39,244 bases of DNA from Rhodocyclaceae bacterium (GTDB lineage Bacteria > Pseudomonadota > Gammaproteobacteria > Burkholderiales > Rhodocyclaceae), in NCBI GenBank assembly GCA_020445785.1, contig JAGRFZ010000146.1, forward strand, positions 1 through 39,244. The letters run 5' to 3'. The notes below the pieces were generated by a model. The model worked only from the letters and a program-made list of their open reading frames with translations. It did not search any database and was not told where the DNA came from. Numbering within the stretch: the stretch's first letter is position 1; each line of letters begins with the position of its first letter. Shown piece after piece: positions 7,439-36,850 of the stretch. A program made the translations under genes and the position numbers.

Positions 7439-8809
<1,371 letters not shown>

Positions 8810-10376: not shown

Positions 10377-10545
10377 GCCGTATGTGCCGGCCGCCGTCGG
10401 CATCGGGACGGCGGCAAACCTGGGGAATGGTGCTGCAATCGGGTCCTGGCCGCAAACGGTCGCTGCAGCGTGCGCGACACGAGAGACTGCAAGATGCGAG
10501 CCTGGGCTGAGCGTGGTTCCGCCTGTCGGCCAGCGATGGTCGTGG

Positions 10546-17013: not shown

Positions 17014-17316
17014 GGCATGGTCTCCGAATGCGTCGCGGGCTGGGCCCGCTACGTGGTGGTGGCGCAAGCACCGGCGACCGGGATCTCTCCCGTGCGCGGT
17101 GGCATCCGCTCAACCTAATAGTCTAGCGCGGAAGCGCGATGGGCGCCCTCGAGCGCGCGTCCCTGCGCACCTCCGTATGGTCCTTGAAACCGCCCTCCGC
17201 ACACCGAGACGCGGTCGCTGTCGTGGGACCGGGGCCGTTGGTGTGAGGTTCCGGGGCGGCCGCGGGAGGTCGAAGCGGCCGGCGTAGGCATCGGCCGGGG
17301 GCTCGGCGACTGGTGG
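17014..17316. other. 303-bp non-coding gap between ccmD and ccmF
   Basis: No reading frame of CcmE type or other convincing coding pattern is present on either strand. On the minus strand TAGACTAT (17118-17125) resembles a -10 box about 105 bp before ccmF, but no good -35 is visible. Nothing else is evident apart from short GC-rich palindromes. Confidence 0.5.
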
Positions 17317-20742: not shown

Positions 20743-20746
20743 GGTC

Positions 20747-21787: not shown

Positions 21788-24363
21788 ACGCTCTTCATCC
21801 AGTCGATGCCCGCCTGGGTGTCGTTGCCGGTGTTGCCGTTGCTGCTCGGAATGCGATCACCCGCTGCCTTGCCGTCGGAGCCGCAGTTGTCCCAGTCCCA
21901 GTCCCCGCTCGGCGAGAAATTGATGATCTTCATCTTTGCCCGCGTGTAGTAGGGCCCGTTGCTGTAGTTGTCGCCGTTGCCGTTGATCGAGACTTCCTTG
22001 CTGCCGGTCTGGCCGGCCTCGGGGCCGACGTCGTTGAGGTTCACCAGCAGCATCTTGTTCTTCCAGCCGTGGGGAACGGCGACGTGGCACCAGGTGCAGA
22101 AGATGCGCTCGATCTTGTCGGTGTGGTAGTTGTGCAGGTTGCCCTTGCCGCGGACGCCATCGTAGAAGCCGGTGCGGCGGCCGGTATCGCTGCGACCGGC
22201 GTAGACCGGTCGGTCGTGGCACTTGAAACACAGGAAATCGGGCGTCGGCGTACCGTCACGGTCGGTGCCGCCGAGACCCGGGCCCCAGACCCCTTTCAGG
22301 ATGAACTTGTTCTGCGAGCCGTGCGGCCCCCACGGATTCGAGCCCGGATCGACGGTGGTGTTGCCGGTGTCGCTGCCGTGACAGTCGGAGCAATACATGG
22401 TCTGGGTGCCGACGTCGTTGGTCCAGGGGCTGAGCCAGGGCGAGGCATTGGTGATTCCGCGTGCGCCCAGGCTGCGACCGGTCGGGCCGACCACCGGGTG
22501 CCAGCCGCGGAAATTGTTGGACGAATAGGCCCCGTCGGCGCCGGTCGCGCCGCTTGCATTGTTGGGCTGGAACTCGCGGGCCTGGTTGGTGTAGCGGTCG
22601 AAGTTGGTACGGCCGTCGGGGTTGGTGCCGGTCAGGCTGGTGGAACTGTCGAGCCGGGGCCGGGTGTTGCCGCTCGGCAGCACGTTGTCGTCGGAGTAGC
22701 CGAAGTCCGAATGGCACTTGAGGCAGATCTGATATTCGCGCGTCAGGTAGGGTTGGGCGGCCGCGGTACTGGTGTTGGTGCCGGGGTCGCCGCGCTTGAC
22801 GATGTAACTGATCGGCAGCGCAAAGAAGGAACCGGACCCATAGACCGGCTCGACCCCCCACTGGCCTCGCAGGGCGCCGGAAATCGCATTCGAGTGGGGT
22901 GCCGAGTGGGCATGGGTTGCGCGGCTGTCGGACGAGGTGTTGAGCTGGGTCAGCGCCCCGGGCAGCCCGCTCGCGCTGCGAATGATGCGGTGGGGGTTGT
23001 GGCAATCGGTGCATTCGGCGTGGCGGTTGTCGAGAGTCGCGACGCCGAGGGTGGCCCGGGGCTCCATCAGGTCCTTCGCGCAGGCCGAACTCGGTCCGGT
23101 GCAGTCGCTCAGGCCGTCGGTGAAATTGGCATTGATGTCGTGCCGTTCCTCGCCGGCCGGTTGCTCCACCGAGCGGATCGGCATGTGCCGGCTCAGGTTG
23201 AAATCGCTTTCGATGTTCGGCACCGTGCCGCTGGCGGTGTTGACCACGCTCGAGGCGGCCGTGGTATGGCATTGGTAGCAGGTTTCCTCGAGCGCCGGAT
23301 TGCCGCCCGTCTTCGGCGTCGAGATGCTGTCGGTGCCTTCCCGGAGGAGACGACGAGAGCCCTGCACGGTATGCGTGTCGTGGCAGTTCAGACAAGCGGC
23401 CCGCCATACCGGTTGGGCATCCGGGAACTCCCGCAGTTGCGCCGGCAGGGTCTTGTAGGTCTCGTCCGCGGTGATTTCGTTGGCATGGACGGAAAAGGCC
23501 CAGCTCGCGTTGCCCTGGTTCTTGTCGTGGCAGGACAGGCAGATGATGTCCGAATCCGGATTGTGGGTGTCGGTGGGCTGCACCTCCTGGAAGCGGTTCT
23601 GGCGCAGGAACTTCTGCGGGCCCTTGGTGGACTCTTCGGTGTCGTACAGGTGCGGATCGTGGCAACTGGCGCACTGGATCTGGCCCTCGCCGACGTCGCC
23701 GGTCGGCTCGAGCGGGACGGCCGGTTTGAAGCCCGGCGCGCGGACGCCGATGATGGAACCGTCGGCCGGCCAGCGCTGCTGCGCGTCGACCGGGCGCAAT
23801 TCGCCGTCGCGGGTCGCCAGCGTGGCGTCGAAGGTGACCGAGATCGGGTGGTCGTTGGTCAGGTCAACCCCCAGGTCGCGGGTGAATCCGGTGGTTTCTC
23901 CCTCGCCGGCGGGCATCGAGCCGTCGGCGGCGGTGCCGGTCATGGAGATCGATACGTCGGTCTGGCCCGCCTTGACATTGACGTTTCCGATCGCCAGCGT
24001 GCCGTCGTGGCAGGACAGGCACAGTTTGGAGCTGCCGCCGGGCTGGTCCAGGGCCTGACCGCGGATGACCTCGGCGTCGAGACTCGACGACGTGTACGGC
24101 GTGTACGCGGTGGTGCCGAGTTCGCGATTCCACAATGGCGGGGGCGCCGCGGTGTTGGCCGCATGCGGCGTGTGGCAGAAGACACAGACCTCGGTTTCCG
24201 TACTGGCGAGAACGTTGCGCGACGGTGCGGTGCCGGTGGTGCGGCCGACCGCCGTCGCCGAAAAGTTGTGCTTGGTGGCGCGAATGTCCGACACCTTCTC
24301 GGCCGAGGCAATGCAGGAGAACAGGGCGAGCGCTAGGGCGACGAAGGGCTGGGCAGATCTCAT
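21769..24363 (-). CDS. Undecaheme cytochrome c with an OmcE-like N-terminal tetraheme head
   Basis: 864 aa from ATG 24363, one base after the upstream lipoprotein stop. A signal peptide (ending CIASAEK) is followed by 11 CxxCH sites: CVFCH, CLSCH, CASCH, CLSCH, CLNCH, CYQCH, CTDCH, CLKCH, CSDCH, CFKCH, CTWCH. The first 300 residues mirror the tetraheme protein at 33460-34305 in order: ATKHN, CVFCHTPH, APPPLWN, CLSCHDGT, LTNDHPI, CASCHDPH, CLSCH. Seven more hemes follow over about 500 residues, spaced widely with Ser/Thr/Asn/Gly-rich segments typical of secreted cytochromes. Extra cysteines (CTGPSSAC; two near the C-terminus) could form disulfides. It may be a surface cytochrome or an adaptor joining a tetraheme filament to the envelope (inference). 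Confidence 0.93.
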   Translation of the reverse strand: MRSAQPFVALALALFSCIASAEKVSDIRATKHNFSATAVGRTTGTAPSRNVLASTETEVCVFCHTPHAANTAAPPPLWNRELGTTAYTPYTSSSLDAEVIRGQALDQPGGSSKLCLSCHDGTLAIGNVNVKAGQTDVSISMTGTAADGSMPAGEGETTGFTRDLGVDLTNDHPISVTFDATLATRDGELRPVDAQQRWPADGSIIGVRAPGFKPAVPLEPTGDVGEGQIQCASCHDPHLYDTEESTKGPQKFLRQNRFQEVQPTDTHNPDSDIICLSCHDKNQGNASWAFSVHANEITADETYKTLPAQLREFPDAQPVWRAACLNCHDTHTVQGSRRLLREGTDSISTPKTGGNPALEETCYQCHTTAASSVVNTASGTVPNIESDFNLSRHMPIRSVEQPAGEERHDINANFTDGLSDCTGPSSACAKDLMEPRATLGVATLDNRHAECTDCHNPHRIIRSASGLPGALTQLNTSSDSRATHAHSAPHSNAISGALRGQWGVEPVYGSGSFFALPISYIVKRGDPGTNTSTAAAQPYLTREYQICLKCHSDFGYSDDNVLPSGNTRPRLDSSTSLTGTNPDGRTNFDRYTNQAREFQPNNASGATGADGAYSSNNFRGWHPVVGPTGRSLGARGITNASPWLSPWTNDVGTQTMYCSDCHGSDTGNTTVDPGSNPWGPHGSQNKFILKGVWGPGLGGTDRDGTPTPDFLCFKCHDRPVYAGRSDTGRRTGFYDGVRGKGNLHNYHTDKIERIFCTWCHVAVPHGWKNKMLLVNLNDVGPEAGQTGSKEVSINGNGDNYSNGPYYTRAKMKIINFSPSGDWDWDNCGSDGKAAGDRIPSSNGNTGNDTQAGIDWMKSVCSSPP

Positions 24364-24364
24364 C

Positions 24365-25435
24365 TTATTGGTTGTTTCCCAGATACTGGAAAATCGCGAC
24401 GCGGCCGTTGAAGGTGTCGGCAACAAAGATCCTGCCGAGGTCGTCGACAGCGACGCCGGACGGAAGGTAAAAGTTTCCGACCGCGTGGCCGACGCCGCCG
24501 ATCGGCATCAAAAATTGCCCATTCTCATTGAATATCAACAAATTATCGTATAGCGACTCGACGATATAGACGTTCCCGTCGGCATCGGTTGCGACCCCTT
24601 TCGGTCGCACCAGATTACCCATGTAGAGGCCTCGCCGGCCGATGCTCCGTACCACTTCTCCAGTATCGATACGCAGGATCTGTACCCGGCTGTTCATGGT
24701 GTCCGTGACATACAGCTCACCGCCGCGGATCGCGAGGTGGGTCGGGTAGTTGAAGCTGCCCGTGTCGTGGCCTCGCTGGCCAAAGCTGCGCAAGGCGCTA
24801 CCGTCGCGGGAGTACTCCCGAATCACATGGCCGTGGGTGTCGGAAACGTAGAGCAGGCCGCTAACGGGATCGCGCGCAATGCCGGTCGGGCGTGCGATCT
24901 CGCCGACTCCGATCGGCTGCAGCGTGGTGCCGTCCGGCAAGAGGTGGGCAATGAAACCGAGTTCGGCATCGGCGACCCAGAAACTGCCGTCGTCATCGGT
25001 GGCGATGCCGATCGGTGCGATGAAGCGGCGCTGGCCGGATGCATATTCGAGGATGCGCAGGTCCCCCTCGATGCTGTCGAAGACGAAGACGGCCGCACGA
25101 CTGACGTCGCTCACCAGAATACGGCCATCGGCGTCGACGGCGACGCCCTGGGGCCGCTGCAGGCTCTTTGGCCGGCTGTCGGCGAGCCCGACCAGCCAGC
25201 GGAAGAAGCGGGTCAGGGCGCCGTCTGCGGATTCGTCGCGGACGAAATTTTCTTCGCCGAATAGCTGCCCGGCGAACTGGTAGCGCGGAATCTCGGGACT
25301 GGGGGGCCACATCAGGCGTGAGAGCTGAGGATCGTCGCCGACGCCCAGGTGCAGCCGGGACGGTGCGGTCGAACAGGCCCCGAGGGCCACGAGCAGCAGC
25401 AGGGACGTCAGGCGGAACCAGTGGGTCACTGCCAT
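24365..25435 (-). CDS. NHL-repeat lipoprotein
   Basis: 356 aa from ATG 25435, overlapping the upstream stop as TGATG. Signal with lipobox LGAC (Cys near 21), then a WPPSPEIPRYQF segment and six NHL blades from about residue 90 to the end, each with the pattern (R/Y)P-x-G-(V/I)-A-x-D-x-x-G-x-(V/I)-(Y/F)-V-(A/S)-D. It should be an outer-membrane-anchored periplasmic or surface beta-propeller. It is paralogous to the lipoprotein at 34567-35700. NHL proteins are frequent neighbours of multiheme cytochromes in metal-respiring bacteria, with a scaffold or assembly role suspected but not shown. It lies between the soluble propeller gene and the 11-heme cytochrome. Confidence 0.88.
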   Translation of the reverse strand: MAVTHWFRLTSLLLLVALGACSTAPSRLHLGVGDDPQLSRLMWPPSPEIPRYQFAGQLFGEENFVRDESADGALTRFFRWLVGLADSRPKSLQRPQGVAVDADGRILVSDVSRAAVFVFDSIEGDLRILEYASGQRRFIAPIGIATDDDGSFWVADAELGFIAHLLPDGTTLQPIGVGEIARPTGIARDPVSGLLYVSDTHGHVIREYSRDGSALRSFGQRGHDTGSFNYPTHLAIRGGELYVTDTMNSRVQILRIDTGEVVRSIGRRGLYMGNLVRPKGVATDADGNVYIVESLYDNLLIFNENGQFLMPIGGVGHAVGNFYLPSGVAVDDLGRIFVADTFNGRVAIFQYLGNNQ

Positions 25436-26364
25436 CACCGGCGTTCGGTGGCCGGCGGCAGCAGCCTGAAGACAACCACCGAGGCCGAGGTCGGATCGGC
25501 GGCGAAAAGGCGATCATCGGCGATTGCAACGGCGGAAACCTGGTGAAGTCCCAGGGCGCGAAGATCCACCGGGCGAACTGATTCGTCGGTGTCGATCAGG
25601 ACGAGTCGGCTACGGTCGCGATGGCTTACCCAGATGCGTCCGTAAGCATCGACGGCGAGGTCGCTCGCGAACGCCAGCTCGCCATCGGCGATGGTTCGCA
25701 TCGGCAGTCCGTGCTGGTCGAGTTCGATGATGCAGGCACAGCTACGATCGAGGACGTAGACGTAATGCCGCCCGGCGGTCGCGGCCTCGATGGTGGTGCC
25801 CTGGTCGGCCAGAACCCTGCGCGAACGAAGCAGTGAGCCGCCAGCCGAGAATTCGTGCATCGTACCGGTGAAGTCGAACACCCAGATTCGCCCACCGACG
25901 GGCTCGCGCAGGGCGTCGACCGCCTGAGTGAACTCGACGCTGCGGTATTCCCCCCGCAACTCGCCGTCCGGTCCGAACTCGCGCACCAGATTCCCGGAAT
26001 TCGGCAACAGGAACCAACTCCGTGCGAGGCCGATGCGCACACGGGGTGCCGCGCCGCTCAGGGGTTGCACCGGCGCGATTTCTTGCCGGTCCAGATCGAC
26101 GCGGAAGGCGCGTCGCAGTCCCTGATCGGCGACGAACAGGGTATTGCCCTCGGCCGCCAGGGCGGTCGGATTCATGAAGCCGGCGAAGCCGCTGGCGGCT
26201 GTCGATGAAACACCGAACTGGCCGGCACCGATCACCTGCTCGCGCAGCAACAGATCCTGTGCCGGCGCAGCCGCCGACGACTCGCCGGCTGCCGGCGCGT
26301 GGGAGGGCCACGACAGCGTCAGGAGCAGGGAGAGAATGAGACTGCTACCAGATACCCGGGCCAT
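25435..26364 (-). CDS. Exported degenerate NHL-type beta-propeller
   Basis: 309 aa from ATG 26364, overlapping the triheme gene by 20 bp. A signal peptide (ending SHAPAAGES) is followed by about six weak beta-propeller blades (NPTALAAEGNTLFVADQG, GGRIWVFDFTGT, RHYVYVLDRSC, YGRIWVSHRDRS, VAIADDRLFAADP). The blades resemble NHL repeats but have lost much of the consensus. It has no lipobox, unlike the following gene, so it is probably a soluble periplasmic partner. The CAC pair in SCACIIELD could form a disulfide or bind metal. Function unknown; co-translation with the triheme and NHL lipoprotein genes suggests a role in the same complex. Confidence 0.8.
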   Translation of the reverse strand: MARVSGSSLILSLLLTLSWPSHAPAAGESSAAAPAQDLLLREQVIGAGQFGVSSTAASGFAGFMNPTALAAEGNTLFVADQGLRRAFRVDLDRQEIAPVQPLSGAAPRVRIGLARSWFLLPNSGNLVREFGPDGELRGEYRSVEFTQAVDALREPVGGRIWVFDFTGTMHEFSAGGSLLRSRRVLADQGTTIEAATAGRHYVYVLDRSCACIIELDQHGLPMRTIADGELAFASDLAVDAYGRIWVSHRDRSRLVLIDTDESVRPVDLRALGLHQVSAVAIADDRLFAADPTSASVVVFRLLPPATERR

Positions 26365-26737
26365 TGGTTTCGTGTCCTCCGAAGATTCCCGGCGGCAGTC
26401 CCGGTTTGCCGGAATGGCAAAGGTCGCAGTTCTCGGGTGCCCAGGCAATTTCGCCGTTGTGGCAGGCACCGCAGAAGCGGCCGTCGATGATGTCGCCCAT
26501 GGTGACCAGGTTGGAACCGGCGCGCATCTTGAAGCCGAGTTCGGCGTGGCACACCTTGCAGCGAAAACGGATGCGATGGAACCAGTGGGGAAAGACCACG
26601 GGTCGCATGCCTTCCTTTTCCGAATTTCGGTTGAGGACGACATCGGCGTACTCGGCGCGCGATTCCAGGCTGTGTCCGATCGCCAGAACGCCAACCAGGA
26701 GTGGGGCGCCGAGAAGGGCGTGCAGGCGGCGAATCAC
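26345..26737 (-). CDS. Triheme c7-type cytochrome (A-type, copy 2)
   Basis: 130 aa from GTG 26737, which overlaps the upstream stop as GTGA and has AGGAAAG upstream. A signal peptide ends near SRAEYAD. Three heme sites follow: CKVCH, CGACH, CDLCH, with FPHWFHRIRFR before the first one supplying distal histidines. It is closely similar to the cytochrome at 29631-30062 (EYADVV, GMRPV(V/I)FPHWFHRIRFRCKVCHA, ENC(D/N)LCHSGKPG). Small enough to diffuse in the periplasm, it probably relays electrons between the inner membrane and the barrel complex. Confidence 0.92.
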   Translation of the reverse strand: MIRRLHALLGAPLLVGVLAIGHSLESRAEYADVVLNRNSEKEGMRPVVFPHWFHRIRFRCKVCHAELGFKMRAGSNLVTMGDIIDGRFCGACHNGEIAWAPENCDLCHSGKPGLPPGIFGGHETNGPGIW

Positions 26738-27378
26738 TGTTGCTTTCCTGCGTTGGGGGAATCCTTGCGGGGTCCGGCCGTGCCCGCGTCGCGACGCTTC
26801 ACCGCGCCGTCGCTTGCGCCCGCCTGCTTCTCCTTTTCCGCCGCCTCGATCGCGGCGACGATACGCTGCGCTTCGTGATTGGGCACCGAGTGGCATCGAC
26901 TGCACTCGGTCAAGGGAAAGGCGACGGCGCCGTGACAGACGCCGCACTGCTGACCCTGGAGGATCAGGAACATGCTGATGTTGTTGGCGCCACGCTTGGG
27001 CAGGAACAGGTGGTCATGACAATTCGAACAGTCCAGCCATTCGGTGTGCGCCAGATGGGGAAATCGTACCGACGGCATGCTGCCGTAGAGATCGAGGTAG
27101 ATGTCCTTGTCCAGCCTTCGGTCTTCGCGATCGGGGTCGATGCTCGGCCTCGGCTGGATCACGCCGGCACGCAGTGCCCGAATCCAGTCCACCTCGTTGC
27201 CTGCGGTATCGCTGGGCAGGTTGGACAGGGCATCTCCGGGATACTGGAGTAACTCGATTGCCGGACCGCGCGGATCATGGACGCCGTCTTCCGACAGCTT
27301 GGTCCAGTTGCCGGAATGAGCTGTCGCGATCGAAGCGCACAGGATCGCGAATGCAGACAGGAATTTGCGGTGCGGCAC
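26734..27378 (-). CDS. Triheme c7-type cytochrome (B-type, copy 2)
   Basis: 214 aa from GTG 27378. A signal peptide (ending SIATAHSG) precedes a B-type N-terminal module (NEVDWIRALRAGVIQPR) and a triheme domain with CSNCH, CGVCH and CSRCH and FPHLAHTEW before the first heme. The C-terminal 45 residues are Lys/Glu/Arg/Ala-rich and probably disordered. Paralogous to 2685-3290 and to the C-terminal part of 28711-29634. It is coupled by GTGA to the A-type triheme gene, so the A and B trihemes are made together, as they are at 28711-30062. Confidence 0.92.
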   Translation of the reverse strand: MPHRKFLSAFAILCASIATAHSGNWTKLSEDGVHDPRGPAIELLQYPGDALSNLPSDTAGNEVDWIRALRAGVIQPRPSIDPDREDRRLDKDIYLDLYGSMPSVRFPHLAHTEWLDCSNCHDHLFLPKRGANNISMFLILQGQQCGVCHGAVAFPLTECSRCHSVPNHEAQRIVAAIEAAEKEKQAGASDGAVKRRDAGTAGPRKDSPNAGKQQ

Positions 27379-27396: not shown

Positions 27397-28299
27397 TCAG
27401 CCCGGAATGTAGATGCCGGCATTCCTGATCGCCTTGACCAGCTCCGAGGTGGACGTTTCCAGGAGCTGGACTGCGCCTGAGTAGTCGCCGCGGGACGCGC
27501 TCGATTCCGCCTGTCCCCGAAGCTGGCCGGCCCGTTCGAGGAAGGCCTTCATGCGTTCATCCATCGATGGATTGGCCTTGCGCCGATCCTCCACCAGCAC
27601 CTTGATCAACATCTGGTGGGTATCGTTGCGATCGAGTTCGTAGTGGTATTCCTCTTCCTTGCTGGCGAAATGCAGCGAGCGAACGAGGGTGTCGCCGGTG
27701 CGCATCGAACTGATGGATGCCTTCGCCATCAGGTAGGCCCGCTCCAGCGTCGCACGCGCCTCCGTCAGGCGGTTTCCGTCCGCCTGCTGCTGCGCTTCGG
27801 CAAGCAGTCCTTCGATCTGGCGCGCACTGTCTGCGGCATCCTTCACGCCCGCCTTCTCTTCGCTGATGCGCTTCTGCGCAGCGAGCAAGGCCTTGACGCT
27901 TTCGAGCTTGTTGTTGAAATCGGTCTGGGCCTTCTGCGAGCTGATGCGCTCGGGGGCGGCGGTCCTGACCGCGGAGAACATCGTGACACTCGCTTCGGAC
28001 AGCAGGCGCGAGGCGGTCGCGTGGTCGCCAGCGGCGAAGGCCTCCTGTGCCTGTTGGTAGAGCCGTTTGGCATCGGCGTGGCGGCGCATCGATTCGGGCT
28101 CGCCGCTCGCCTCGATCTGTTTGGCGGCGGACGAGGTGCTCAGCAAGGTGCCGACCGACGTGAAGCGCTTTTCCAATTGGGTGACATCGACCGCCCGGGC
28201 CTGCATCCGGCTCGCCGCGGTGCCCCCGTCGGCAGGCCAGGCGGCGCCGATCATCGCCAGCCAGGCGAGCCCGACGCCTGCAACATGTTTGATTGACAT
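27397..28299 (-). CDS. Exported alpha-helical protein of unknown family
   Basis: 300 aa from ATG 28299, with GGAGGAG seven bases upstream. A signal peptide (MSIKHVAGVGLAWLAMIGAAWPA) is followed by an almost wholly helical, Ala/Glu/Gln/Lys-rich chain. Three regions look like helical repeats with a GD turn: AQEAFAAGDHATASRLLSEA, AEAQQQADGNRLTEARATLE and AESSASRGDYSGAVQLLETS, close to TPR or Bdellovibrio-type helical hairpins. There is no heme motif. It sits between two duplicated triheme pairs and has the best ribosome site of the region, so it is probably abundant. A periplasmic scaffold for cytochromes is a guess from position. Confidence 0.75.
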   Translation of the reverse strand: MSIKHVAGVGLAWLAMIGAAWPADGGTAASRMQARAVDVTQLEKRFTSVGTLLSTSSAAKQIEASGEPESMRRHADAKRLYQQAQEAFAAGDHATASRLLSEASVTMFSAVRTAAPERISSQKAQTDFNNKLESVKALLAAQKRISEEKAGVKDAADSARQIEGLLAEAQQQADGNRLTEARATLERAYLMAKASISSMRTGDTLVRSLHFASKEEEYHYELDRNDTHQMLIKVLVEDRRKANPSMDERMKAFLERAGQLRGQAESSASRGDYSGAVQLLETSTSELVKAIRNAGIYIPG

Positions 28300-28710
28300 T
28301 GCAGCACTCCTCCGTGATCCCGCTCCGACCGGAATCCGTGTCGGCGCAGGCATGCACATTCTTCGATCCACGGTCCTGAGGTCCGACCGAGGCAGTTTCG
28401 TTTCCCGAATCCAATTTTACCGCGCGACGCCCTCATGGCACGGACCGCATGTAGCGGAATGTTGTGCGCCTGGCGAGTGGGCCGGATGACGCGATGCCAC
28501 CCGGGTGCTCGCCGGAACGTCTTGCCGCCATCCACGCCGGCGATCATGACGGTCGATGCCGGATCTACCCCGCACCGTGCCTGGGCATCTGCAGACGAAC
28601 GTTGGCGGCGCGCGAAGATGGCCGGCGCATGGCTGGCCGGGAGATTGCGAGGGAAGGTGGGTGGGCTGCGGACGCCGCCCCACGCGGGCGGGGCATCCGC
28701 AGCCCGGTTC
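28300..28710. other. 411-bp non-coding region between two cytochrome gene groups
   Basis: No coding pattern is convincing on either strand. It holds a large hairpin next to the upstream gene's stop (28663-28705) and, on the minus strand near 28418-28423, TAAAAT, which could be a -10 box for the helical-protein operon but lacks a good -35. No strong sigma-54 motif was found. Confidence 0.5.
28663..28705 (-). terminator. Large hairpin after the c5-c7 fusion gene
   Basis: A 14-bp inverted repeat (GGGCTGCGGACGCC at 28663-28676 with GGCATCCGCAGCCC at 28692-28705; one G-U type mismatch) starts six bases after the stop codon at 28711. No U-run follows, so it is either a Rho-aided terminator or a 3' mRNA stabiliser separating two transcription units. 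Confidence 0.5.
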
Positions 28711-29634
28711 TCACTGAGCCTGGGCGTTCTTGACCGGCATTACGTTCTTCTTCTTCGAGTGACAGATTCTGCACTCGGATACCGGGAAAGCGACCTTGCC
28801 GTGGCAGACACCGCATTTCTGGCCCAGCAGGATGGCCGCCATGCTGATCTGGTTGGCACCCTTCTGCGGAATGAAGATCTGCGGATGGCAGTTCGAGCAA
28901 TCGAGCCAGGCCGTGTGTTGCTTGTGCGGATAGACGACGTCCGGCATCGAGCCCTTGACCTCGCGGACGATGTTGAGGTCCATGACCACCGGTGCCGCTG
29001 CGGGGTCGGTCCGGTCCCAGCGCGGGGCGATCAGGTTGTTGTCGAGCGACTTGACCCAGTCGACGCGATTGCCGGCATTGCTGCGGGGGAGGGCCTCGAA
29101 GACCTGAAGAGGTGCCTGCAGTGCGTGGGTCCCGTCGTTGTCCGGGTCGTGGATGCCGTCTTCCGGCGGCGGCGGGTTGCGCTTGGAAGCCGGTTTCAAG
29201 AGGCGGTTGAAACTCAGCGCGGCAGGCCGCGGTTTGGTCGGTGCGGCGGGCGCTGCCTGGGCCGCCGGTGCGGCCGGGGCTGCGGCAGCGGGCTCTCCGG
29301 CGCCGCCTTCGGCAGCGGCAACCATGTAATCGACGGCGGCCTTGATGTCGGCATCGGATACGTCGGTGGCGCCACCCTTGGCGGGCATTGCCGGCGCCTT
29401 GCCCTTGATTGCCGACTCGTACAAGGTGTCGATGCCGGCCTTGATGCGCGGCGCCCAGGCTTTCGCGTCGCCGAGCTTGGGCGCTCCGGCGATACCAGCC
29501 GAATGGCAGGCGACACAAACCTTGTCGTAGACCGCCTTGCCCTTTTCATCCTGGGCGAAGGTCGGGCCCGTGGCGAGCAGCGTGCCGGCCGCGAGGCCGA
29601 GTACGGCCATCGGAACTCGCAGGATTCTGTTCAT
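28711..29634 (-). CDS. Fused cytochrome c5 - triheme c7 protein
   Basis: 307 aa from ATG 29634, overlapping the upstream stop as ATGA. After a signal peptide (ending GPTFAQ) comes a class I cytochrome c5-like domain with CVACH near 40-44 and a Met ligand in PAMPAKGG, then an Ala/Pro-rich linker (about 115-140). The rest is a B-type c7 module: DGIHDPDNDG, NRVDWVKSLD, PHKQHTAWL and CSNCH, CGVCH, CRICH. Four hemes in total. The other two B-type proteins lack the c5 domain. A c5 domain usually docks with a membrane quinol or oxidase complex, so the fusion may join that step to the c7 relay (inference). Confidence 0.92.
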   Translation of the reverse strand: MNRILRVPMAVLGLAAGTLLATGPTFAQDEKGKAVYDKVCVACHSAGIAGAPKLGDAKAWAPRIKAGIDTLYESAIKGKAPAMPAKGGATDVSDADIKAAVDYMVAAAEGGAGEPAAAAPAAPAAQAAPAAPTKPRPAALSFNRLLKPASKRNPPPPEDGIHDPDNDGTHALQAPLQVFEALPRSNAGNRVDWVKSLDNNLIAPRWDRTDPAAAPVVMDLNIVREVKGSMPDVVYPHKQHTAWLDCSNCHPQIFIPQKGANQISMAAILLGQKCGVCHGKVAFPVSECRICHSKKKNVMPVKNAQAQ

Positions 29635-30062
29635 TGCTGACCTCCTGCCTGGGGCTGAATCGCAAGTTTCTGGATCGTGCTCTCGTGAACCTGGGTCGGT
29701 GTGCCGGGCTTGCCGGAATGACAGAGGTTGCAGTTCTCCACGGACCAGGCGATGTCGCCGTTGTGGCAGGCACCGCAGAATTGGCCGTCGATGATCTTCA
29801 CCATGTTGATCTCGTTGCCTCCGGCCTTGAACTGGAAGCCGAGATCGGCATGGCAGACCTTGCAGCGAAATCGAATACGGTGGAACCAGTGGGGGAAAAT
29901 CACGGGGCGCATGCCTGCGGCGTCGGAGTAGTTGTTGATCACTACGTCCGCGTACTCGGCACGGGCTTCGCCAGAAGTGCCGAAGCCACCGATGCAGACG
30001 GCGGCGGCCAGCGCAGCGGCTTGCGCGCCGCGCCAAAGTGCCCCGGGGTGTCGTATTCTCAT
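29631..30062 (-). CDS. Triheme c7-type cytochrome (A-type, copy 1)
   Basis: 143 aa from ATG 30062; an in-frame ATG at 30077 is also possible and neither has a strong ribosome site. A signal peptide ends near EARAEYAD. Heme sites CKVCH, CGACH and CNLCH follow FPHWFHRIRFR. Closely similar to 26345-26737 but with a longer C-terminal tail (HESTIQKLAIQPQAGGQQ). It is the first cytochrome gene after the outer-membrane barrel (90 bp), making it the natural periplasmic partner of the conduit. Confidence 0.92.
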   Translation of the reverse strand: MRIRHPGALWRGAQAAALAAAVCIGGFGTSGEARAEYADVVINNYSDAAGMRPVIFPHWFHRIRFRCKVCHADLGFQFKAGGNEINMVKIIDGQFCGACHNGDIAWSVENCNLCHSGKPGTPTQVHESTIQKLAIQPQAGGQQ

Positions 30063-30151: not shown

Positions 30152-32320
30152 CTAGTAGCCTCCGAAGCTTCTACTTACACGGAAGAACAGTACAGCATTT
30201 TTCCTGCCATCCACCTCGGCCACACGAAGCTGGAGCCGTGACGTGAGGCGGCCGATGCGGTAGTCGAGGTTCTGCTCGAGATCCTGCGTCGTTTCTTCCC
30301 GGTCGGCATCGAGCACGCCGAACTCGCGCTCATTGCTGTTGGACTGTGACGCGGTGTAGCGCAGCGAATAGCGCAGGCCCTGGACCGAGAACGGGCGATC
30401 ATGGAAGTAGCTCAGCGAGCCATTGAGCGACGAGTCCTCCGAAGAACTGTCGTCGATGGCGAACGGATCGTCGACCTCTTCCGAATCGCTCGAACTGTCG
30501 TCACGCCAGGATTTCTGGTAGCTCAGGTTGGCATGCAGCTGCGCGCGCCGCGACAGCCGCCAGTTGCCGAACATCTGGGCGTTCAGCATCTGGAACTCGG
30601 ACCGGCGGTCTCCGCGGCTGCGGGTGTCGGACACGCTGAGACTGAAAGTGCCGCTGGTGGCATCGGACGGGTTGGTCGAAACCGACACCGATCCGGTATT
30701 CGACAGGGTCGAACTGTGATTGAAGTCGCTTACGCCGAAGCGTCGGTTGTAGGACAGGGATTGTCCGAGCGAGGCGGAGACCACGGTGGTCTGGCTCGGA
30801 ATCCATTGGCGATTGAGCGAATGGGATGCACTCGCAGACGCCGCCCGGCTGTCCCGTTCGTCCGAGATCGTGTTGCTGACGCCGGCGCCGGTTCCCCAAC
30901 TGTAGGAATACTTCCCAAACCTGAGAGGGTCCGCGCTGTAGCTCATGGACGCCGCCTGGGTGAACACGGTCTGGACCCGATCGTTGCTGCGGCTGGTCGT
31001 CGTGGACAGACTGCCGGCGGCCGACAGGTTGCGATTGAAGCGGTAGCGGCCGCTGGCCGTGAGATTCAGGGTGTCCCGTTCGTTCGAGCCGTCGGACTCC
31101 GATCGGGAATAGCGACCGGCAAGTGCGGCACTCCAGGGGGATTCCAGGGGCGTCCAGTTGGCGGAACTGTAGACCTGCAAGGTGCTGAGCGTGCTGTCGC
31201 CATCGTTTCTGCCTCGCTTGTCCCGCAGCAGGGTGGCAGTGGAGTTGATGTTCAGATCCTGTCGCGCCCGGTAGTGGTGGTTCCCGTTGACCACGAGGAT
31301 CTGAGAAGAAAAGTCGTCGTCGGTGCGACTGTTCTCGGTCAGCGATCCCTGGACGTCGAAGTCCTGCTTGTCGGCCGCCCAGCGATAGCCGCCTGCCAAG
31401 CGATGCACCGTGTCGGCGCCAAATGTGCCGCCCTCGATGCGGTCCCAGTCATAGGTGGCATGGGTGCTCCATCGGCCCTGGATCGGTCGGTAATCCTGTC
31501 GAAGGGAAAGTCGATACGAGCGCTGGGTGTTGGTGATCAGGGTGGAGTCCGAGCGGCTGTCGGAAACGCTGAACCGGACCGACATGGGGAAGCGGCTCAG
31601 CGGAAAGATGCTTGCGCCGGCCGAGCCGGAAACGGCGACGGATTCCGAGTCCCCCGTGACGCCATTGCTGCCGGTCTGCGTCTCGCTCGTGATGAAGGCG
31701 ACATTGACGCGGCCATCGATCTGCGCGATCCACGGCTGCAGAATGTAGCTGGCCGCCACCGCGGATATTTCGTACGTCTTGGCCGTCAGCTCCGGGCCCT
31801 GATCGGCCTTCTGGCGCCGCCAGGAATAGCTGAGGACCCCGCCCCAACGGATTGGGGCCAATCCGTAGCGCTTCGATGAATCCTCGTCGTCGCCCTGAAC
31901 GCTGGACGCGGCGGCAACGGCGGGCGCTGTCGCCGGTCCGGGAGCCGATTCGGAAACCTCGACGACGACCGATGGGGTCGAAGCGGCTGCCGTTGGTTCG
32001 TCGGTCGGGGCGGGCAGGGGCTCACCCGCCTGCGCAACCTCGTGCGCCTCCTCCCAGCGCAGTGCGAACGGGTGAAGTGCCGGCGCGAAATCCGAACCGA
32101 TCCGGTGGTGGGAGGGGGGTGGCTGCGGCGGCTGCATGCCGTCCAGTGACAAGGTGCGCGACAGCTTCAACGCCGGAACTGGCAGTGCCTCCGCCGTAGG
32201 ATGCGGGACTCCGAATGCCGGGCAGGCGACGCCGCCGCCCAGCATCACACCTCCCATAAGACCCAGCGGACGGAGGTATCGCCCCCCTCTGTTGCCGAAT
32301 GGTGTGGTCGCTTCGGTCAC
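30152..32320 (-). CDS. Large outer-membrane beta-barrel protein
   Basis: 722 aa from GTG 32320 (22 bp after the PPIase stop). A signal peptide (about 1-37) is followed by a Pro/Ala/Ser-rich linker to about 145, then about 570 residues of alternating amphipathic strands separated by Asp/Ser/Asn/Arg-rich turns (for example WGGVLSYSWRRQ, VVSASLGQSLSYNRRFG, LHANLSYQKSW), ending FFRVSRSFGGY with a terminal aromatic residue as in outer-membrane barrels. The strand content would allow 20 or more strands. There is no heme motif. Placed between PPIase and periplasmic cytochromes, it is the likely porin sheath or secretion channel of a cytochrome conduit, comparable in role to MtrB or Geobacter Omb proteins but with no clear sequence match. 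Confidence 0.85.
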   Translation of the reverse strand: MTEATTPFGNRGGRYLRPLGLMGGVMLGGGVACPAFGVPHPTAEALPVPALKLSRTLSLDGMQPPQPPPSHHRIGSDFAPALHPFALRWEEAHEVAQAGEPLPAPTDEPTAAASTPSVVVEVSESAPGPATAPAVAAASSVQGDDEDSSKRYGLAPIRWGGVLSYSWRRQKADQGPELTAKTYEISAVAASYILQPWIAQIDGRVNVAFITSETQTGSNGVTGDSESVAVSGSAGASIFPLSRFPMSVRFSVSDSRSDSTLITNTQRSYRLSLRQDYRPIQGRWSTHATYDWDRIEGGTFGADTVHRLAGGYRWAADKQDFDVQGSLTENSRTDDDFSSQILVVNGNHHYRARQDLNINSTATLLRDKRGRNDGDSTLSTLQVYSSANWTPLESPWSAALAGRYSRSESDGSNERDTLNLTASGRYRFNRNLSAAGSLSTTTSRSNDRVQTVFTQAASMSYSADPLRFGKYSYSWGTGAGVSNTISDERDSRAASASASHSLNRQWIPSQTTVVSASLGQSLSYNRRFGVSDFNHSSTLSNTGSVSVSTNPSDATSGTFSLSVSDTRSRGDRRSEFQMLNAQMFGNWRLSRRAQLHANLSYQKSWRDDSSSDSEEVDDPFAIDDSSSEDSSLNGSLSYFHDRPFSVQGLRYSLRYTASQSNSNEREFGVLDADREETTQDLEQNLDYRIGRLTSRLQLRVAEVDGRKNAVLFFRVSRSFGGY

Positions 32321-32342: not shown

Positions 32343-33371
32343 TCAGCCCTTCACGTCGTCGAAGAAAGGAAATGCGTCGGTATTGATCTCGACGTCGTAG
32401 CCCTGGCTCAGGTTCTCGAGATAGCTCTTCCAGGCCACTTCCGCACGCTCGCGCGCCAGTAGGCCCGTGGCCCGCTCGCGGACGCGCTCGAAGCTGTGGT
32501 GTATCGCCTCCTTGCGGCCCAGCAGCTGAAAGACGGCGATTCCCTCGAGGATGCGGATCGGCTTGGAGACGTCACCGATTTCCAAGGAATCGAGCTGTTG
32601 GTGCAGGGCTTCGGGCACCATGCCGCGGTGGATGTAGCCCAGGTCGCCGCCTTCGTCGGCGGAAGGGTCGGCAGAATGGAGCTCCGCGAGCGCTTCGAAG
32701 CGCTCGCCTTCGCCGATCCGGTCGACCAGCTTCTGGGCTTCCTCCTCGGCGAGCTTCCACACGCTTGTCGCCGAGGACGGATCGACCCGCAGCAGGATCA
32801 TGCCGAGACGGACCTGCTCCGGTTCGGTGAACTTGTCGGGATTGGCCTCGTAATAGGCACGTAGTTCCGCTTCGGTGGGATCGGGAAGCTGCTTGACACG
32901 GGCTTCCACGCGTTCCCGCAGGCTGTCGCGCTCGAGCTTGGCGCGCAGCGCCGGCAGCACGGACTCGCGCCGCTCCTGCCAGACCGGGCTGTCGCTGTAA
33001 CGTGCTTCGTACCTGGCGATGTCGGCATCGACCTTTTCGGTGTCCGGCGCGATGCCGAATTTCTTTGCCTCGTGCTCCATCAGGATGTCGTTGATGAGCT
33101 GCCGGCCGACTTCGCGCCGTACTTCGTCGACTTCCGCCTCCGGCGGCTTGCCGTGGTAGAACTTCTGCCGAATCTGTTCGTTCAGTGCGGCGGTGTACTG
33201 GGCCGCAGGGATGGTGACGCCCTCGACGACGGCGAAGGTCGTATCGGTGGTGCCCGCATGGGCTGCGCTCGGGGGCGCGACCTTGTCGACACGTACCTGG
33301 GCCGATGTCTGGGTCACGGCCAGGACGAGGAACGCGGACAGCGCGAGCCGTGCGAAGAGGTGGCTGGTCAT
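32343..33371 (-). CDS. Periplasmic SurA/PrsA-like peptidyl-prolyl isomerase
   Basis: 342 aa from ATG 33371. Signal peptide (ending TSAQVRVD), an N-terminal chaperone domain (about 45-165, including GVTIPAAQYTAALNEQIRQK and INDILMEHEAKKFGI) and a parvulin-type rotamase domain (about 175-275: VRLGMILLRVD, GERFEALAELHSADPSADEGGDLGYIHRGMVPEAL, VSKPIRILEGIAVFQLLGR). A C-terminal helix follows. It probably folds the beta-barrel or multiheme cytochromes. The gene lies directly after the terminator of the OmcE-like gene and directly before the barrel. PPIases occur beside other secreted cytochrome genes, fitting an assembly role. Confidence 0.9.
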   Translation of the reverse strand: MTSHLFARLALSAFLVLAVTQTSAQVRVDKVAPPSAAHAGTTDTTFAVVEGVTIPAAQYTAALNEQIRQKFYHGKPPEAEVDEVRREVGRQLINDILMEHEAKKFGIAPDTEKVDADIARYEARYSDSPVWQERRESVLPALRAKLERDSLRERVEARVKQLPDPTEAELRAYYEANPDKFTEPEQVRLGMILLRVDPSSATSVWKLAEEEAQKLVDRIGEGERFEALAELHSADPSADEGGDLGYIHRGMVPEALHQQLDSLEIGDVSKPIRILEGIAVFQLLGRKEAIHHSFERVRERATGLLARERAEVAWKSYLENLSQGYDVEINTDAFPFFDDVKG

Positions 33372-33395: not shown

Positions 33396-33429
33396 AAAAA
33401 ACGGGCCGGGCGCGCTGTGCGCCCGACCC
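33396..33429 (-). terminator. Intrinsic terminator after the OmcE-like cytochrome
   Basis: On the minus strand an 11-bp stem (arms 33419-33429 and 33403-33413, one G-U pair) with a five-base loop is followed by G and six T. It lies 30 bases after the stop at 33460 and 25 bases before the PPIase start, so the OmcE-like gene can be transcribed as a short unit with limited read-through. Confidence 0.85.
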
Positions 33430-33459
33430 ACTTGCGATTTTACAACAGCTGGCTTGCGG

Positions 33460-34305
33460 TTACTTGTTGTGGCAGGCCAGGCAAACGCCGGAGTTGGCTT
33501 GGCTCACGCGCAGGAACGAAACCTCGGTGGCTGCCTTCGCTTCGACGTGCGGATCGTGGCACGAAGCGCACTCGACCGACGCGCCAACCGCTGGACCGGC
33601 CGGCGTGGCGCCGGTGAAGTCACGGGTGTAGAGAATGATGTCGTTCTTCTCACGATCGGTCGAAGCGCCAGCACTGGTATTGACCCAGAACACCTGCGTG
33701 CCGTTGATCACGCGGGTCGAAGCCGCGTTGAAGTCGCCGTCGGCGCAGGTGCCATTGACGACGTCGCCGGCACCGGTCAGGCCACCACCGCAATACTGGA
33801 TGCCGATCGGGTGGTCGTTGGTCAGATCCTGGCCGAGGTTGGCAATCGACGTGGCGGGCATGATGCCGTTGGCAGTGCCGCCGTTGGTGGTATCCCACAC
33901 GTAGATCGCGGTAGCCGGATCGGCCGAGGGGTTGGTGCCGGATCCCGGGGTGTTGATCATGTTGTCCATCGCCTGCGTACCGTCGTGGCACGACAGACAG
34001 GCTGCCGACACGGAACCGACCTGAATGGTCGCGGCGTCCATCGTCGTCGAGCTGTACATCTGATAGCCCGTCGGATCGGGGATGTTCTTGTTCCACAGCG
34101 GCGCGGATGCATCGGTGTTCGCACCGTGCGGCGTGTGGCAGAACACGCAGATCTCTTGCGTGTTGCCCGGATCAGAAGTCAGCTGATTCGGCCCCGGACC
34201 GGACGCGGTCAGGTTGTGCTTGGTTGCGGAAATGCCCGCCATGGCGACGCCCGACGCAAGTGCGAGCGCGGTCAGGACGAGTGCCTTGTTGGTACGTGTA
34301 GTCAT
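33460..34305 (-). CDS. OmcE-like tetraheme cytochrome, candidate nanowire subunit
   Basis: 281 aa from ATG 34305 (CAGGGGG ribosome site eight bases upstream). A signal peptide ends near ASGVAMA. Four heme sites: CVFCH (53-57), CLSCH (103-107), CASCH (246-250), CLACH (275-279). The whole protein has eight histidines: the four above and H30 (ATKHN), H60 (CHTPH), H165 (NDHPI) and H253 (HDPH), exactly enough for four bis-His hemes. C172 and C187 may form a disulfide. Order, spacing and the ATKHN, CVFCHTPH, PLWN, CLSCHDGT and CASCHDPH motifs match the Geobacter OmcE (GSU0618) family, whose members polymerise into filaments. Own sigma-54 promoter and terminator suggest high, regulated expression. 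Polymerisation is inferred. Confidence 0.9.
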   Translation of the reverse strand: MTTRTNKALVLTALALASGVAMAGISATKHNLTASGPGPNQLTSDPGNTQEICVFCHTPHGANTDASAPLWNKNIPDPTGYQMYSSTTMDAATIQVGSVSAACLSCHDGTQAMDNMINTPGSGTNPSADPATAIYVWDTTNGGTANGIMPATSIANLGQDLTNDHPIGIQYCGGGLTGAGDVVNGTCADGDFNAASTRVINGTQVFWVNTSAGASTDREKNDIILYTRDFTGATPAGPAVGASVECASCHDPHVEAKAATEVSFLRVSQANSGVCLACHNK

Positions 34306-34390: not shown

Positions 34391-34406
34391 AGCAACACGT
34401 GTGCCA
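34391..34406 (-). promoter_or_regulatory. Sigma-54 promoter of the OmcE-like gene
   Basis: Read on the minus strand: C-TGGCAC-N5-TTGCT-TTT. All six -24 and all five -12 positions match consensus with correct GG-N10-GC spacing. The predicted start is near 34380, giving a 75-nt leader to ATG 34305. The sigma-54 activator at 7439-8809 is a candidate regulator. Confidence 0.85.
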
Positions 34407-34566: not shown

Positions 34567-35700
34567 TCACTCGGGCTTCTTCTTGGCGGGCGCGCCGAAG
34601 CCGCCGTCGGCCGAGAGGGCGTAGGGGCGGTAGACGTCGACCTTGCGGAACCACTGGTCGACGAAGTAGATCCGTCCGTCGGCGTCGACCGAGATTCCCG
34701 AGGGCAGCATGTACCGGCCCGGGCCCGGCGACTCGGAGCGTTGGCCGATGAACATCAGGAGGTCGCCTTCCGGCGTGAAGATCTGGAAGTTGCCGAACGC
34801 GGCGTCGGCCACATAGACGTTGCCGTCAGGCCCGACCGCCAATTCCTTGGGACGGGAGAAATTACCGTACTGGCGGCCTGCCTTGCCGAAGGAGTCGAGG
34901 AAATTGCCTTCGGAATCGAAGATCTGGACGCGGAAGTTGCCGCCGTCAACCACGTAGAGCCGTCCGTCCTTGCCGACTGCCAGGTCGCGGGGCAGGTTGA
35001 ATTCGCCGGGCCCGCTGCCGCGCTTGCCGATGTCCCGGACGTGTTCGCCGGTATTGGCGTCGAAGACGCGAACGCGATGGTTGTCGGAAAGCACGCCACC
35101 GATGTCCACGACATAGATTCTGCTGCCGTCCGGGCTGGCGGTCACGCTGGTGAGTCGATCGAACAGGTCCTTGCCGCCGATCTTGCGCAGGTGGCGGCCG
35201 TCCCGGTCATAGATCTGGATTGCCCGTGCGGTGGCGTCCGCGACATATAGGTTGCCGGCCGCATCGGTGTCGAGCCCGATCGGCTTGAGCAGTTGGCCCG
35301 GATCTTCCGCACCGACGAGGAAAAAGGTCTGCTCGTGCAGGTCGAACGCCTTGACCATGCGATCGACGGTGTCGGAGACGAACAGGCGCCCTTGGTGGAC
35401 CGCTGCCGCGTAGGGCTTTCCGAAGCCGATGCCGCTACGGGTTTCGCCGGTCAGCAGGCGCCGGAACTGGTCGTCGTCGGAATCGGCGAGGACGTCCGCC
35501 GAGGAGGCGATGGTGCGTTCGAAGATGAAGCGTGGGTCGTCCGGCGGGCCGGGGTAGACCAGTTCCCGTTTCGCGGCCGAGCCGTCTCCCTGGGGTCGGA
35601 TTTCCGCACACCCGGCGAGGATGGTCAATGTCGTCAGCAGGGCGGGCGCAGCCAACGCGCGGAGTTTCTGGAGCGGGGTGGTGGCTTTCGATGTATGCAT
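34567..35700 (-). CDS. NHL-repeat lipoprotein, second copy
   Basis: 377 aa from ATG 35700. Lipobox LAGC with Cys31, then a YPGPPDDPRFIF segment and NHL blades to about residue 360 (GQLLKPIGLDTDAAGNLYVAD, FNLPRDLAVGKDGRLYVVD, FSRPKELAVGPDGNVYVAD, YMLPSGISVDADGRIYFVD). The C-terminus is GAPAKKKPE. Paralogous to 24365-25435, so the cluster carries two lipidated propellers plus a soluble one. It sits between the two tetraheme genes, 52 bp after the first. Probably anchored in the outer membrane and involved in assembly or surface attachment of the cytochromes; this is inference from context. Confidence 0.88.
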   Translation of the reverse strand: MHTSKATTPLQKLRALAAPALLTTLTILAGCAEIRPQGDGSAAKRELVYPGPPDDPRFIFERTIASSADVLADSDDDQFRRLLTGETRSGIGFGKPYAAAVHQGRLFVSDTVDRMVKAFDLHEQTFFLVGAEDPGQLLKPIGLDTDAAGNLYVADATARAIQIYDRDGRHLRKIGGKDLFDRLTSVTASPDGSRIYVVDIGGVLSDNHRVRVFDANTGEHVRDIGKRGSGPGEFNLPRDLAVGKDGRLYVVDGGNFRVQIFDSEGNFLDSFGKAGRQYGNFSRPKELAVGPDGNVYVADAAFGNFQIFTPEGDLLMFIGQRSESPGPGRYMLPSGISVDADGRIYFVDQWFRKVDVYRPYALSADGGFGAPAKKKPE

Positions 35701-35752: not shown

Positions 35753-36481
35753 CTACTTGATGTGGCAGGTCGAACACAGGATTCCGCCCTGGGGCGAAGC
35801 CCTGAGGAAGAGCGCCTCCGTCGAGTGCGGATTGTGGCAACTCGCGCATTCGACGAACGGTATCTCGCTTCCATCCTCCAGATCAAGGCGCACGTAGAGC
35901 GGCAGGTCGTGGCGGCCCCTGCGGTCCGTGCTTTCGGTCCGCGAAGCCCACCATACCGGGCGATTGTCGATGACGGCGCGCTGTGCCGGACGGAACTCGT
36001 CGGCAATGATCCGCCGTGCCTCGTGCATCGGCGCGCCGGACAGTCTCGCGGCCTGTCGCGCACGCTCGCGCACTTCGGCCATGCCGGCGCCGCGGTAAGG
36101 AACGCCATAGGGATGTTCGTTGGAGAGGCGCGAGATCGAAAAGGCCTGGGCCGAATCGTGGCAGGAAAGGCAGGCGATCGACTGCGAGCCGACGGCTGTG
36201 TTGCCCGCCGTGCCCATTCTCCCGATGTCGTCGAAGATCGGGTAGGAATAGTCGGGAGAAAGGCTCGATTGCCATTCCGGTGCCGTCGAAGACAGGTTGG
36301 CGCCGGTGAAGGTCGGTGTGTGGCAGAACACGCAGATCTGCCCGGTCTCCCGCTGCGTCAGATCGTGCCGGCCCGACAGGTTGTGCTTCGTGCCGCGCAG
36401 ATCCTGCGCCGAACTGCCGGCAGTCAGGGAAGCGAGCATCGAAAGTGCGACCAGTCTGATTATCGTTGGAGGCAGGTGCAT
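35753..36481 (-). CDS. OmcE-related tetraheme cytochrome, variant ligand set
   Basis: 242 aa from ATG 36481, chosen because a signal peptide follows (hydrophobic stretch ending TAGSSAQD). Four heme sites: CVFCH, CLSCH, CASCH and CSTCH, the last three residues from the C-terminus. The frame matches the OmcE-like protein at 33460: GTKHN, CVFCHTP, NEHPYG, CASCHNPH. It differs in having CHTPT where the other two have CHTPH, so one distal histidine is missing; extra histidines (GRHD, MHEAR, GRHDLP) could substitute. The central 100 residues are Arg-rich, unlike the acidic, Asn/Thr-rich filament candidate. It may be a periplasmic or capping relative and not a filament subunit. A sigma-54 promoter lies 280 nt upstream. 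Confidence 0.9.
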   Translation of the reverse strand: MHLPPTIIRLVALSMLASLTAGSSAQDLRGTKHNLSGRHDLTQRETGQICVFCHTPTFTGANLSSTAPEWQSSLSPDYSYPIFDDIGRMGTAGNTAVGSQSIACLSCHDSAQAFSISRLSNEHPYGVPYRGAGMAEVRERARQAARLSGAPMHEARRIIADEFRPAQRAVIDNRPVWWASRTESTDRRGRHDLPLYVRLDLEDGSEIPFVECASCHNPHSTEALFLRASPQGGILCSTCHIK

Positions 36482-36771: not shown

Positions 36772-36787
36772 AGCAACCCACATGCCA
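36772..36787 (-). promoter_or_regulatory. Sigma-54 promoter upstream of the tetraheme/NHL operon
   Basis: Read on the minus strand: TGGCATG-N4-TTGCT-TTA. The -24 element matches five of six (T in place of the last C), the -12 element is perfect and the spacing is exact. The predicted start near 36761 leaves a 280-nt leader before ATG 36481. The bases after -12 (TTGCTTT) match those of the 34391 promoter. Confidence 0.75.
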
Positions 36788-36850
36788 CGTGCGCTTCGCC
36801 GGCTCGGATCGCTTCTTGCGTCTGCGCCTCGATTTCTTTGGAGAGTTGCC

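Follow-up and report, generated by a model that had tools for sequence, protein, structure and literature searches.

An OmcE-family tetraheme cytochrome as a putative filament subunit in a conserved gene cluster of a Rhodocyclaceae bacterium

The gene cluster and its conservation

The DNA considered here, 39,244 nucleotides from a Rhodocyclaceae bacterium (the window), carries a cluster of minus-strand genes around OmcE_A (33460..34305), a tetraheme cytochrome assigned to the OmcE family from its open reading frame and homology, and the putative main subunit of a filament. Along the minus strand the order is OmcE_B, NHL_A, OmcE_A, PpiC, barrel, Tri_1, c5Tri_2, HP, Tri_3, Tri_4, NHL_B, NHL_C and BigMHC. 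OmcE_B (35753..36481) is a tetraheme paralogue without the second histidine of the CXXCHTPH motif, and NHL_A (34567..35700) is an NHL-repeat beta-propeller with a lipobox-like LAGC near its N terminus, as judged by eye. OmcE_A is followed by a PpiC/SurA-type peptidyl-prolyl isomerase (32343..33371) with PpiC domains and, by eye, an N-terminal signal-like stretch, and by a beta-barrel (30152..32320; start codon provisional) in which 28 long strands are predicted over residues 144-722. Then come a triheme c7-type cytochrome, Tri_1 (29631..30062; TIGR04257); c5Tri_2 (28711..29634), which by domain match joins a single-heme cytochrome c domain to a triheme c7 domain; and the conserved protein HP (27397..28302; start provisional), for which no domain family scored above its cut-off. 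Two further triheme c7-type cytochromes, Tri_3 (26734..27378) and Tri_4 (26345..26782; start provisional), precede the propeller-like NHL_B (25435..26307; start provisional), whose NHL match is below cut-off, and the NHL-repeat beta-propeller NHL_C (24365..25438), with a lipobox-like LGAC by eye. BigMHC (21769..24363) has 11 CXXCH motifs, made up of an N-terminal OmcE-like tetraheme module and seven further hemes. Beyond it lie genes that we named by eye as ResB-like (20747-21787) and CcsA-like (19930-20766).

Other features of the window are recorded here as observations in their own right. On the plus strand, 36782-38688 encodes two divergent cytochrome c proteins, one having two CXXCH motifs and the other three, which stand beside the cluster in 58/80 loci (best 80 of 106). 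CcmH/CycH-like and CcmF cytochrome c maturation genes lie near the cluster on the minus strand (12362-14155 and 14995-17067). A fifth triheme c7 domain (TIGR04257) is found at 3051-3257 on the plus strand, adjoined on the other strand by a Crp-type regulator (3299-4024). At the far end, a minus-strand frame at 38972-39244 consists of a low-complexity repeat with units like PEKVERVERIEE, and remains open as it leaves the window.

When genome contigs were scanned, 106 relatives were identified among 123 stretches that matched, and of these relatives the best 80 were kept; all counts of relatives and loci below are for these best 80 of 106, with the window added where stated. Their record titles are mostly Rhodocyclales, Burkholderiales and Gammaproteobacteria, the Burkholderiales including Rubrivivax, Ramlibacter, Piscinibacter, Leptothrix, Sphaerotilus, Polaromonas and Rhodoferax; among named records, the nearest are MAGs of the HKST-UBA series (Rhodocyclaceae). 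L061 is a contig titled Planctomycetota, but in the tree its OmcE_A sits with a Leptothrix sequence, so the contig is probably misbinned. At E <= 1e-5, OmcE_A has a match in 10/61 near genomes (its own included), and 1/6 genomes at genus level is without one; across the phylum, 23/398 genomes match at E <= 1e-15, again counting its own.

A neighbouring gene was counted as present where its best-matching reading frame lay somewhere in the locus, a measure that says nothing of exact order. Among those of the best 80 of 106 loci that had room, PpiC is present in 71/75, the barrel in 67/71, NHL_A in 66/76, Tri_1 in 56/64, c5Tri_2 in 60/64, HP in 55/64, Tri_3 and NHL_C in 57/61 each and Tri_4 in 51/61. 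OmcE_B is present in 20/73 loci with room and BigMHC in 41/61 loci with at least 9.9 kb downstream, which rules out these two as general components of the cluster. Within the same best 80, PpiC is missing despite room in L042, L043, L046 and L074 (4/75), the barrel in L038, L074, L075 and L096 (4/71), and NHL_A in 10/76; L074, a second Polaromonas locus, has its OmcE-type cytochrome alone. In six Aromatoleum-type loci (L023, L025-L028 and L031) cytochrome c maturation-like genes directly follow NHL_C, and no BigMHC is in place.

The barrel was modelled from 56 sequences (alignment A2, 55 of 67 usable barrels and that of the window), giving 28 long strands at a pLDDT of 90.8. The solved structures closest to it in fold are diverse large barrels, including MtrB (6r2q_B), LptD and TonB-dependent receptors, with no clear winner.

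OmcE_A as a member of the OmcE family

The OmcE_A reading frame starts with ATG and encodes 281 amino acids. CXXCH motifs begin at residues 53, 103, 246 and 275, and the only histidines are residues 30, 57, 60, 107, 165, 250, 253 and 279, four of them proximal. An earlier note on this DNA had described a series of motifs in OmcE order and a total of exactly eight histidines; all seven motifs (7/7) are in the translation, and our count agrees, with four histidines in CXXCH and four others. A chance origin of the CXXCH motifs can be ruled out, since four of them never occurred together in 20,000 shuffled versions of the protein and the maximum was one. The eight histidines and eight heme cysteines are invariant in 81/81 sequences (best 80 of 106 relatives and the window). 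The same 81 have a total of eight histidines in 49 cases, nine in 23 and at least ten in nine, some of these last carrying an untrimmed reading-frame lead. Seen by eye, a candidate Sec export signal at the N terminus has a basic start, a hydrophobic stretch and then AMA/GIS, and residues 4-26 are helical in an AlphaFold2 model of pLDDT 55.

Searched alone against all solved structures (phmmer), OmcE_A matches OmcE of Geobacter sulfurreducens (7tfs) at E 4e-27 and 9yuq at E 1.6e-24, values that reach 2.1e-38 and 1.1e-36 with a profile of 73 OmcE_A-family sequences (alignment A1 holds 72 of the best 80 relatives and P0001). These are the only significant matches: three others within E 10 have E values no better than 0.64, the profile finds nothing beyond the same two structures at E <= 0.1, and no OmcS chain is among the matches of OmcE_A at E <= 10. 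In a global alignment with residues 9-232 of OmcE there are 95 identities over 217 aligned residues, and 8/8 OmcE_A histidines fall on OmcE histidines. Kinship with OmcE had been proposed in the earlier note, which named the lack of a match to the family as evidence against it; a significant match, with all eight histidines aligned, is what the search returned.

The likeness to OmcE thus covers the four CXXCH motifs, the four aligned distal histidines, the CHTPH and NDHP motifs and homology over the whole length. OmcE_A differs in having 16 extra residues between the second CXXCH and NDHP and 29 more between NDHP and the third CXXCH. A pair of cysteines in the insert region (C172 and C187 of OmcE_A) is a further difference, each being cysteine in 47/81 sequences (best 80 of 106 relatives and the window), whereas OmcE has no cysteine outside CXXCH. 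These extra segments might change how a filament packs. The other structure, 9YUQ, is titled 'putative multiheme cytochrome c' and comprises 16 chains of one 218-residue sequence; its order of motifs equals that of OmcE_A, but it is shorter, and much of what OmcE_A has from NDHP to the third CXXCH is without an equivalent in it.

The AlphaFold2 monomer of OmcE_A, predicted without heme from 73 sequences, has a pLDDT of 55 and a pTM of 0.42, and Foldseek, searched with this model, found nothing at E <= 0.001. Residues ~171-230 form a well-predicted beta subdomain, besides which only N-terminal pieces are well predicted. This subdomain falls within the segment that is longer than in OmcE, near the cysteine pair of 47/81 sequences (best 80 of 106 and the window).

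OmcE homologues outside Geobacter are already in print. Rfer_0244 of Rhodoferax ferrireducens, also a betaproteobacterial protein, was named as one in 2009 (PMC2755013), and homologues of OmcE from across the bacteria and archaea are cited in a review of 2025 (PMC12307469). OmcE_A alone therefore adds a member to a known family; the host is indeed a Rhodocyclaceae bacterium, so the earlier placing of such a protein outside Geobacter-type bacteria stands, but not as a first. The account of Rfer_0244 differs from the present one in that its available text gives no cluster, ligand-loss paralogue or promoter (PMC2755013).

Transcription of OmcE_A and its neighbours

A consensus scan placed a sigma-54 promoter-like site, TGGCACACGTGTTGCT, upstream of OmcE_A on the minus strand (34391..34406). 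Read from 34406 to 34391, it matches TGGCAC-N5-TTGCT with zero mismatches and lies ~86-101 bp 5' of the ATG. On the other side of the gene a GC-rich hairpin (33433-33399, minus strand) is followed by GTTTTTTC, and this hairpin with its T-tract was assigned as an intrinsic terminator (33399..33433) from a conservation scan. Window-only scans would not have given support to either element: sigma-54 sites with at most two mismatches number 21 in the window against 16.4 expected, which is no excess, the folding energy of the terminator is mildly unusual (z -1.40), and the terminator is not among the results of a generic terminator scan of the window.

Support comes instead from conservation in relatives. 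In 300-bp upstream regions, compared with dinucleotide shuffles and with the start codons of relatives picked by script, a site with at most one mismatch precedes OmcE_A in 42/81 cases, five of them perfect, against 0.3 expected (best 80 of 106 loci and the window), which rules out a chance origin of the site. These sites lie mostly 55-110 bp before the script-chosen start. Likewise, a hairpin and T-tract occur within 130 bp 3' of OmcE_A in 37/80 regions against 0.15 expected (79 loci, from the best 80 of 106, and the window). That OmcE_A has a sigma-54 promoter and terminator of its own, as the earlier note had it, is thus backed by conservation in both parts.

The promoter is not exclusive to OmcE_A within the cluster. 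By the same limit of one mismatch (best 80 of 106 loci), sites are found before 19/74 NHL_A genes and 24/98 c5Tri_2-like genes, indicating more than one sigma-54 promoter in the cluster, and before 3/20 OmcE_B genes; for the window, a site with one mismatch lies ~290 bp before OmcE_B (36772..36787, minus strand; consensus scan). The corresponding counts are 2/71 for the barrel, 0/41 for BigMHC, 0/83 for HP and 4/74 for PpiC, and Tri_1 has 1/63, with 17 more at two mismatches (best 80 of 106 loci). Because OmcE_A has both its own conserved sigma-54 site and a terminator, the filament gene would often form a separate transcription unit within the cluster, which is what one would expect of a subunit required in excess.

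Some distance away lie genes for an NtrC-type sigma-54-dependent response regulator (7439..8809, minus strand) and, beside it, a histidine kinase (8850..10403, minus strand). Their link to the cluster is one of proximity only, which is weak evidence as the sigma-54 activator domain is matched 27 times in the genome, and the regulator is therefore not taken to be dedicated to the cluster. A zero-mismatch consensus sigma-54 site also lies inside the regulator gene (7610-7625).

A putative filament and its possible ends

The intersubunit ligand of OmcS, His16, is part of a CXXCHTMH motif; should OmcE be built likewise, its donor would be the CHTPH histidine. In both OmcS and OmcE one heme is ligated by a histidine of the neighbouring subunit (PMC9473688; PMC12307469), and in OmcS it is heme 505 that is ligated by one neighbour histidine (PMC6584659). 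OmcE_A probably serves as the main building block of an extracellular cytochrome filament of the OmcE type. In favour of this are its homology to OmcE with all eight histidines aligned, their invariance among relatives, the conserved promoter and terminator and the conserved neighbourhood. We infer that OmcE_A would be secreted and helped to fold by the PpiC-type isomerase, with the 28-strand barrel either passing it through the outer membrane or anchoring it there. It would then polymerise into a bis-histidine heme chain, in which the CHTPH histidine (H60) of one subunit ligates a heme of the next. The triheme c7 cytochromes may trade electrons with the filament from the periplasm, and a transcription unit of its own would let OmcE_A exceed the assembly proteins in amount. 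Points against this reading are the low confidence of the monomer model, the extra segments relative to OmcE, the place of OmcE beside the BigMHC modules in the tree and the loci with room that lack PpiC, the barrel or NHL_A.

The neighbours of OmcE_A recall a known system. The osc operon encodes a prolyl isomerase, OscH, and a propeller-like protein, OscD. Work by Shen et al. (2025), as described in PMC13194489, assigns OscH to the folding, OscE/F/G to the secretion and OscD to the morphology of OmcS nanowires in Geobacter. Likened by description, both this operon of G. sulfurreducens and the present cluster group such proteins with a filament gene (PMC13194489): a prolyl isomerase is present here (PpiC, 71/75 loci with room, best 80 of 106), as are beta-propellers (the NHL repeats of NHL_A and NHL_C), and the one 28-strand barrel may be a counterpart of the secretion proteins OscE/F/G. 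The systems differ in the filament gene itself, which is an OmcE-type tetraheme cytochrome here and an OmcS-type hexaheme cytochrome in osc.

Polymerisation cannot be read from sequence, and OmcE_A could instead be a monomeric or loosely associated tetraheme cytochrome of the surface or periplasm, acting as a terminal metal reductase or oxidase or as an electron store. The module of the same family that is fused into BigMHC need not polymerise, and there is dispute in print over what cytochrome filaments do physiologically (PMC11077965). Such a protein would leave unexplained why the CHTPH histidine is invariant in 81/81 OmcE_A sequences (best 80 of 106 and the window), yet its loss is tolerated in 23/23 OmcE_B sequences. 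The promoter and terminator of OmcE_A and its osc-like neighbours likewise speak against this alternative, which we consider unlikely.

A filament of OmcE_A could also carry current inward, serving electron uptake, by oxidation of Fe(II) or Mn(II) or from a cathode or partner cell, in place of the disposal of respiratory electrons. Leptothrix oxidises metals, and the relatives include Leptothrix discophora and Sphaerotilus mobilis as well as the MAG Biocath_Gamma_008; the two divergent cytochrome c proteins that adjoin the cluster in 58/80 loci (best 80 of 106) would also suit this direction. Aromatoleum and Azoarcus, with their facultative anaerobic life, are among the relatives too and argue the other way. 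Electron uptake is a serious possibility, if rather less than probable.

Whatever the direction of the current, OmcE_B departs from the pattern of the putative filament subunit. It matches OmcE at E 2.4e-12 over nearly its full length and keeps 7/8 ligand histidines, the CXXCHTPH histidine being lost in 23/23 sequences (the window and 22 loci; best 80 of 106). The residue at the site is T in ten, I in three, S in three, M in two, L in two and D, Q or R in one each (the same 23), and in the OmcE_B of L025 there is a histidine one residue after the lost-ligand site. OmcE_B sequences form one clade in the tree with full support and a long stem. They occur in 22/80 loci (best 80 of 106); of the 20/73 with room, most have Rhodocyclales-type titles and a few are titled only as beta- or gammaproteobacterium.

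Elsewhere the family keeps two histidines per heme, and so the loss of one distal ligand in OmcE_B stands out. The OmcE modules of BigMHC have the CHTPH histidine in 22/22 and the first histidine in 20/22 (best 80 of 106 loci), along with seven further CXXCH motifs. Paralogues with five CXXCH are found on two other contigs of the same genome (C140:8246-9067 and C143:8849-9673; loci L003 and L004), and such variants occur in 12 other loci, e.g. L056, L069 and L078 (best 80 of 106). Their ten histidines, two per heme, are invariant in 14/14 (best 80 of 106 loci), and the extra CXXCH and extra histidine sit in one insertion before NDHP; the added heme is possibly a branch heme. In the tree, which took in 17/81 OmcE_A rows, OmcE and 9yuq branch next to the BigMHC modules (97/96) and outside the OmcE_A rows, which are not one clade; this placement is unsure because of long branches, flagged by the program.

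Without the donor histidine, OmcE_B could take a ligand from the last OmcE_A subunit and could not pass one on, which fits a cap at one end of the wire, and BigMHC, where present, could serve as its base, wiring the filament to the cell. This joint reading is doubtful. Its odds are lowered by the Aromatoleum-type clusters, in which OmcE_B is present but no BigMHC is in place, and as OmcE_B is present in 20/73 loci with room (best 80 of 106) such a cap cannot be universal; the two genes occur together in 11 loci (best 80 of 106). The loss of the CHTPH histidine in 23/23 (best 80 of 106 loci and the window) would equally leave an open heme site, and the view that OmcE_B does not polymerise and acts instead as a partner, such as an electron carrier or a subunit whose heme site is open and reactive, comes close to an even call. 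It agrees with the separate deep clade, with the absence of OmcE_B from 53/73 loci with room (best 80 of 106) and with the methionine, a possible ligand, in 2/23 (best 80 of 106 loci and the window). A role within the filament is favoured by the other seven ligands, invariant in 23/23 (best 80 of 106 loci and the window), and by membership of the same cluster. Exactly seven histidines are present in 4/22 orthologues, all from Aromatoleum/Azoarcus (best 80 of 106 loci), the number needed if a neighbour gives the eighth.

Clusters that pair cytochromes with a barrel have been described before. In the OetABI and OmcX-OmcS-Apc2a clusters of syntrophic sulfate reducers, putative filament cytochromes stand beside a barrel and periplasmic cytochromes; their filament candidates are OmcS-like, OmcX and a six-heme protein (PMC10553843). 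The PCC3/PCC4 clusters of Leptothrix and other Proteobacteria also combine a barrel with multiheme cytochromes, and PCC3, compared by description, differs in having cytochromes with tens of hemes and an inner-membrane protein in the set (PMC5566968). As far as the available text of the open-licence PMC literature goes, we found nothing that describes the betaproteobacterial cluster, OmcE_B or nanowire caps. What we did not find in print, and regard as new, is the conserved cluster setting with its ligand-loss paralogue, module fusion and conserved sigma-54/terminator unit.

Cytochrome nanowire structures are known from few organisms. The secretion and anchoring of OmcS wires were called speculative in a 2025 review (PMC12307469), and the available text of the OmcZ structure paper left tip proteins out of account (PMC9473688). 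If true, the reading of OmcE_B as cap and BigMHC as base would be the first molecular proposal for how a nanowire is stopped and anchored. Named strains carry one or other of the two genes (OmcE_B in Aromatoleum; BigMHC in Ramlibacter, Rubrivivax sp. A210 and Piscinibacter defluvii; best 80 of 106 loci), so capping and anchoring could be tested by single gene deletions outside Geobacter.
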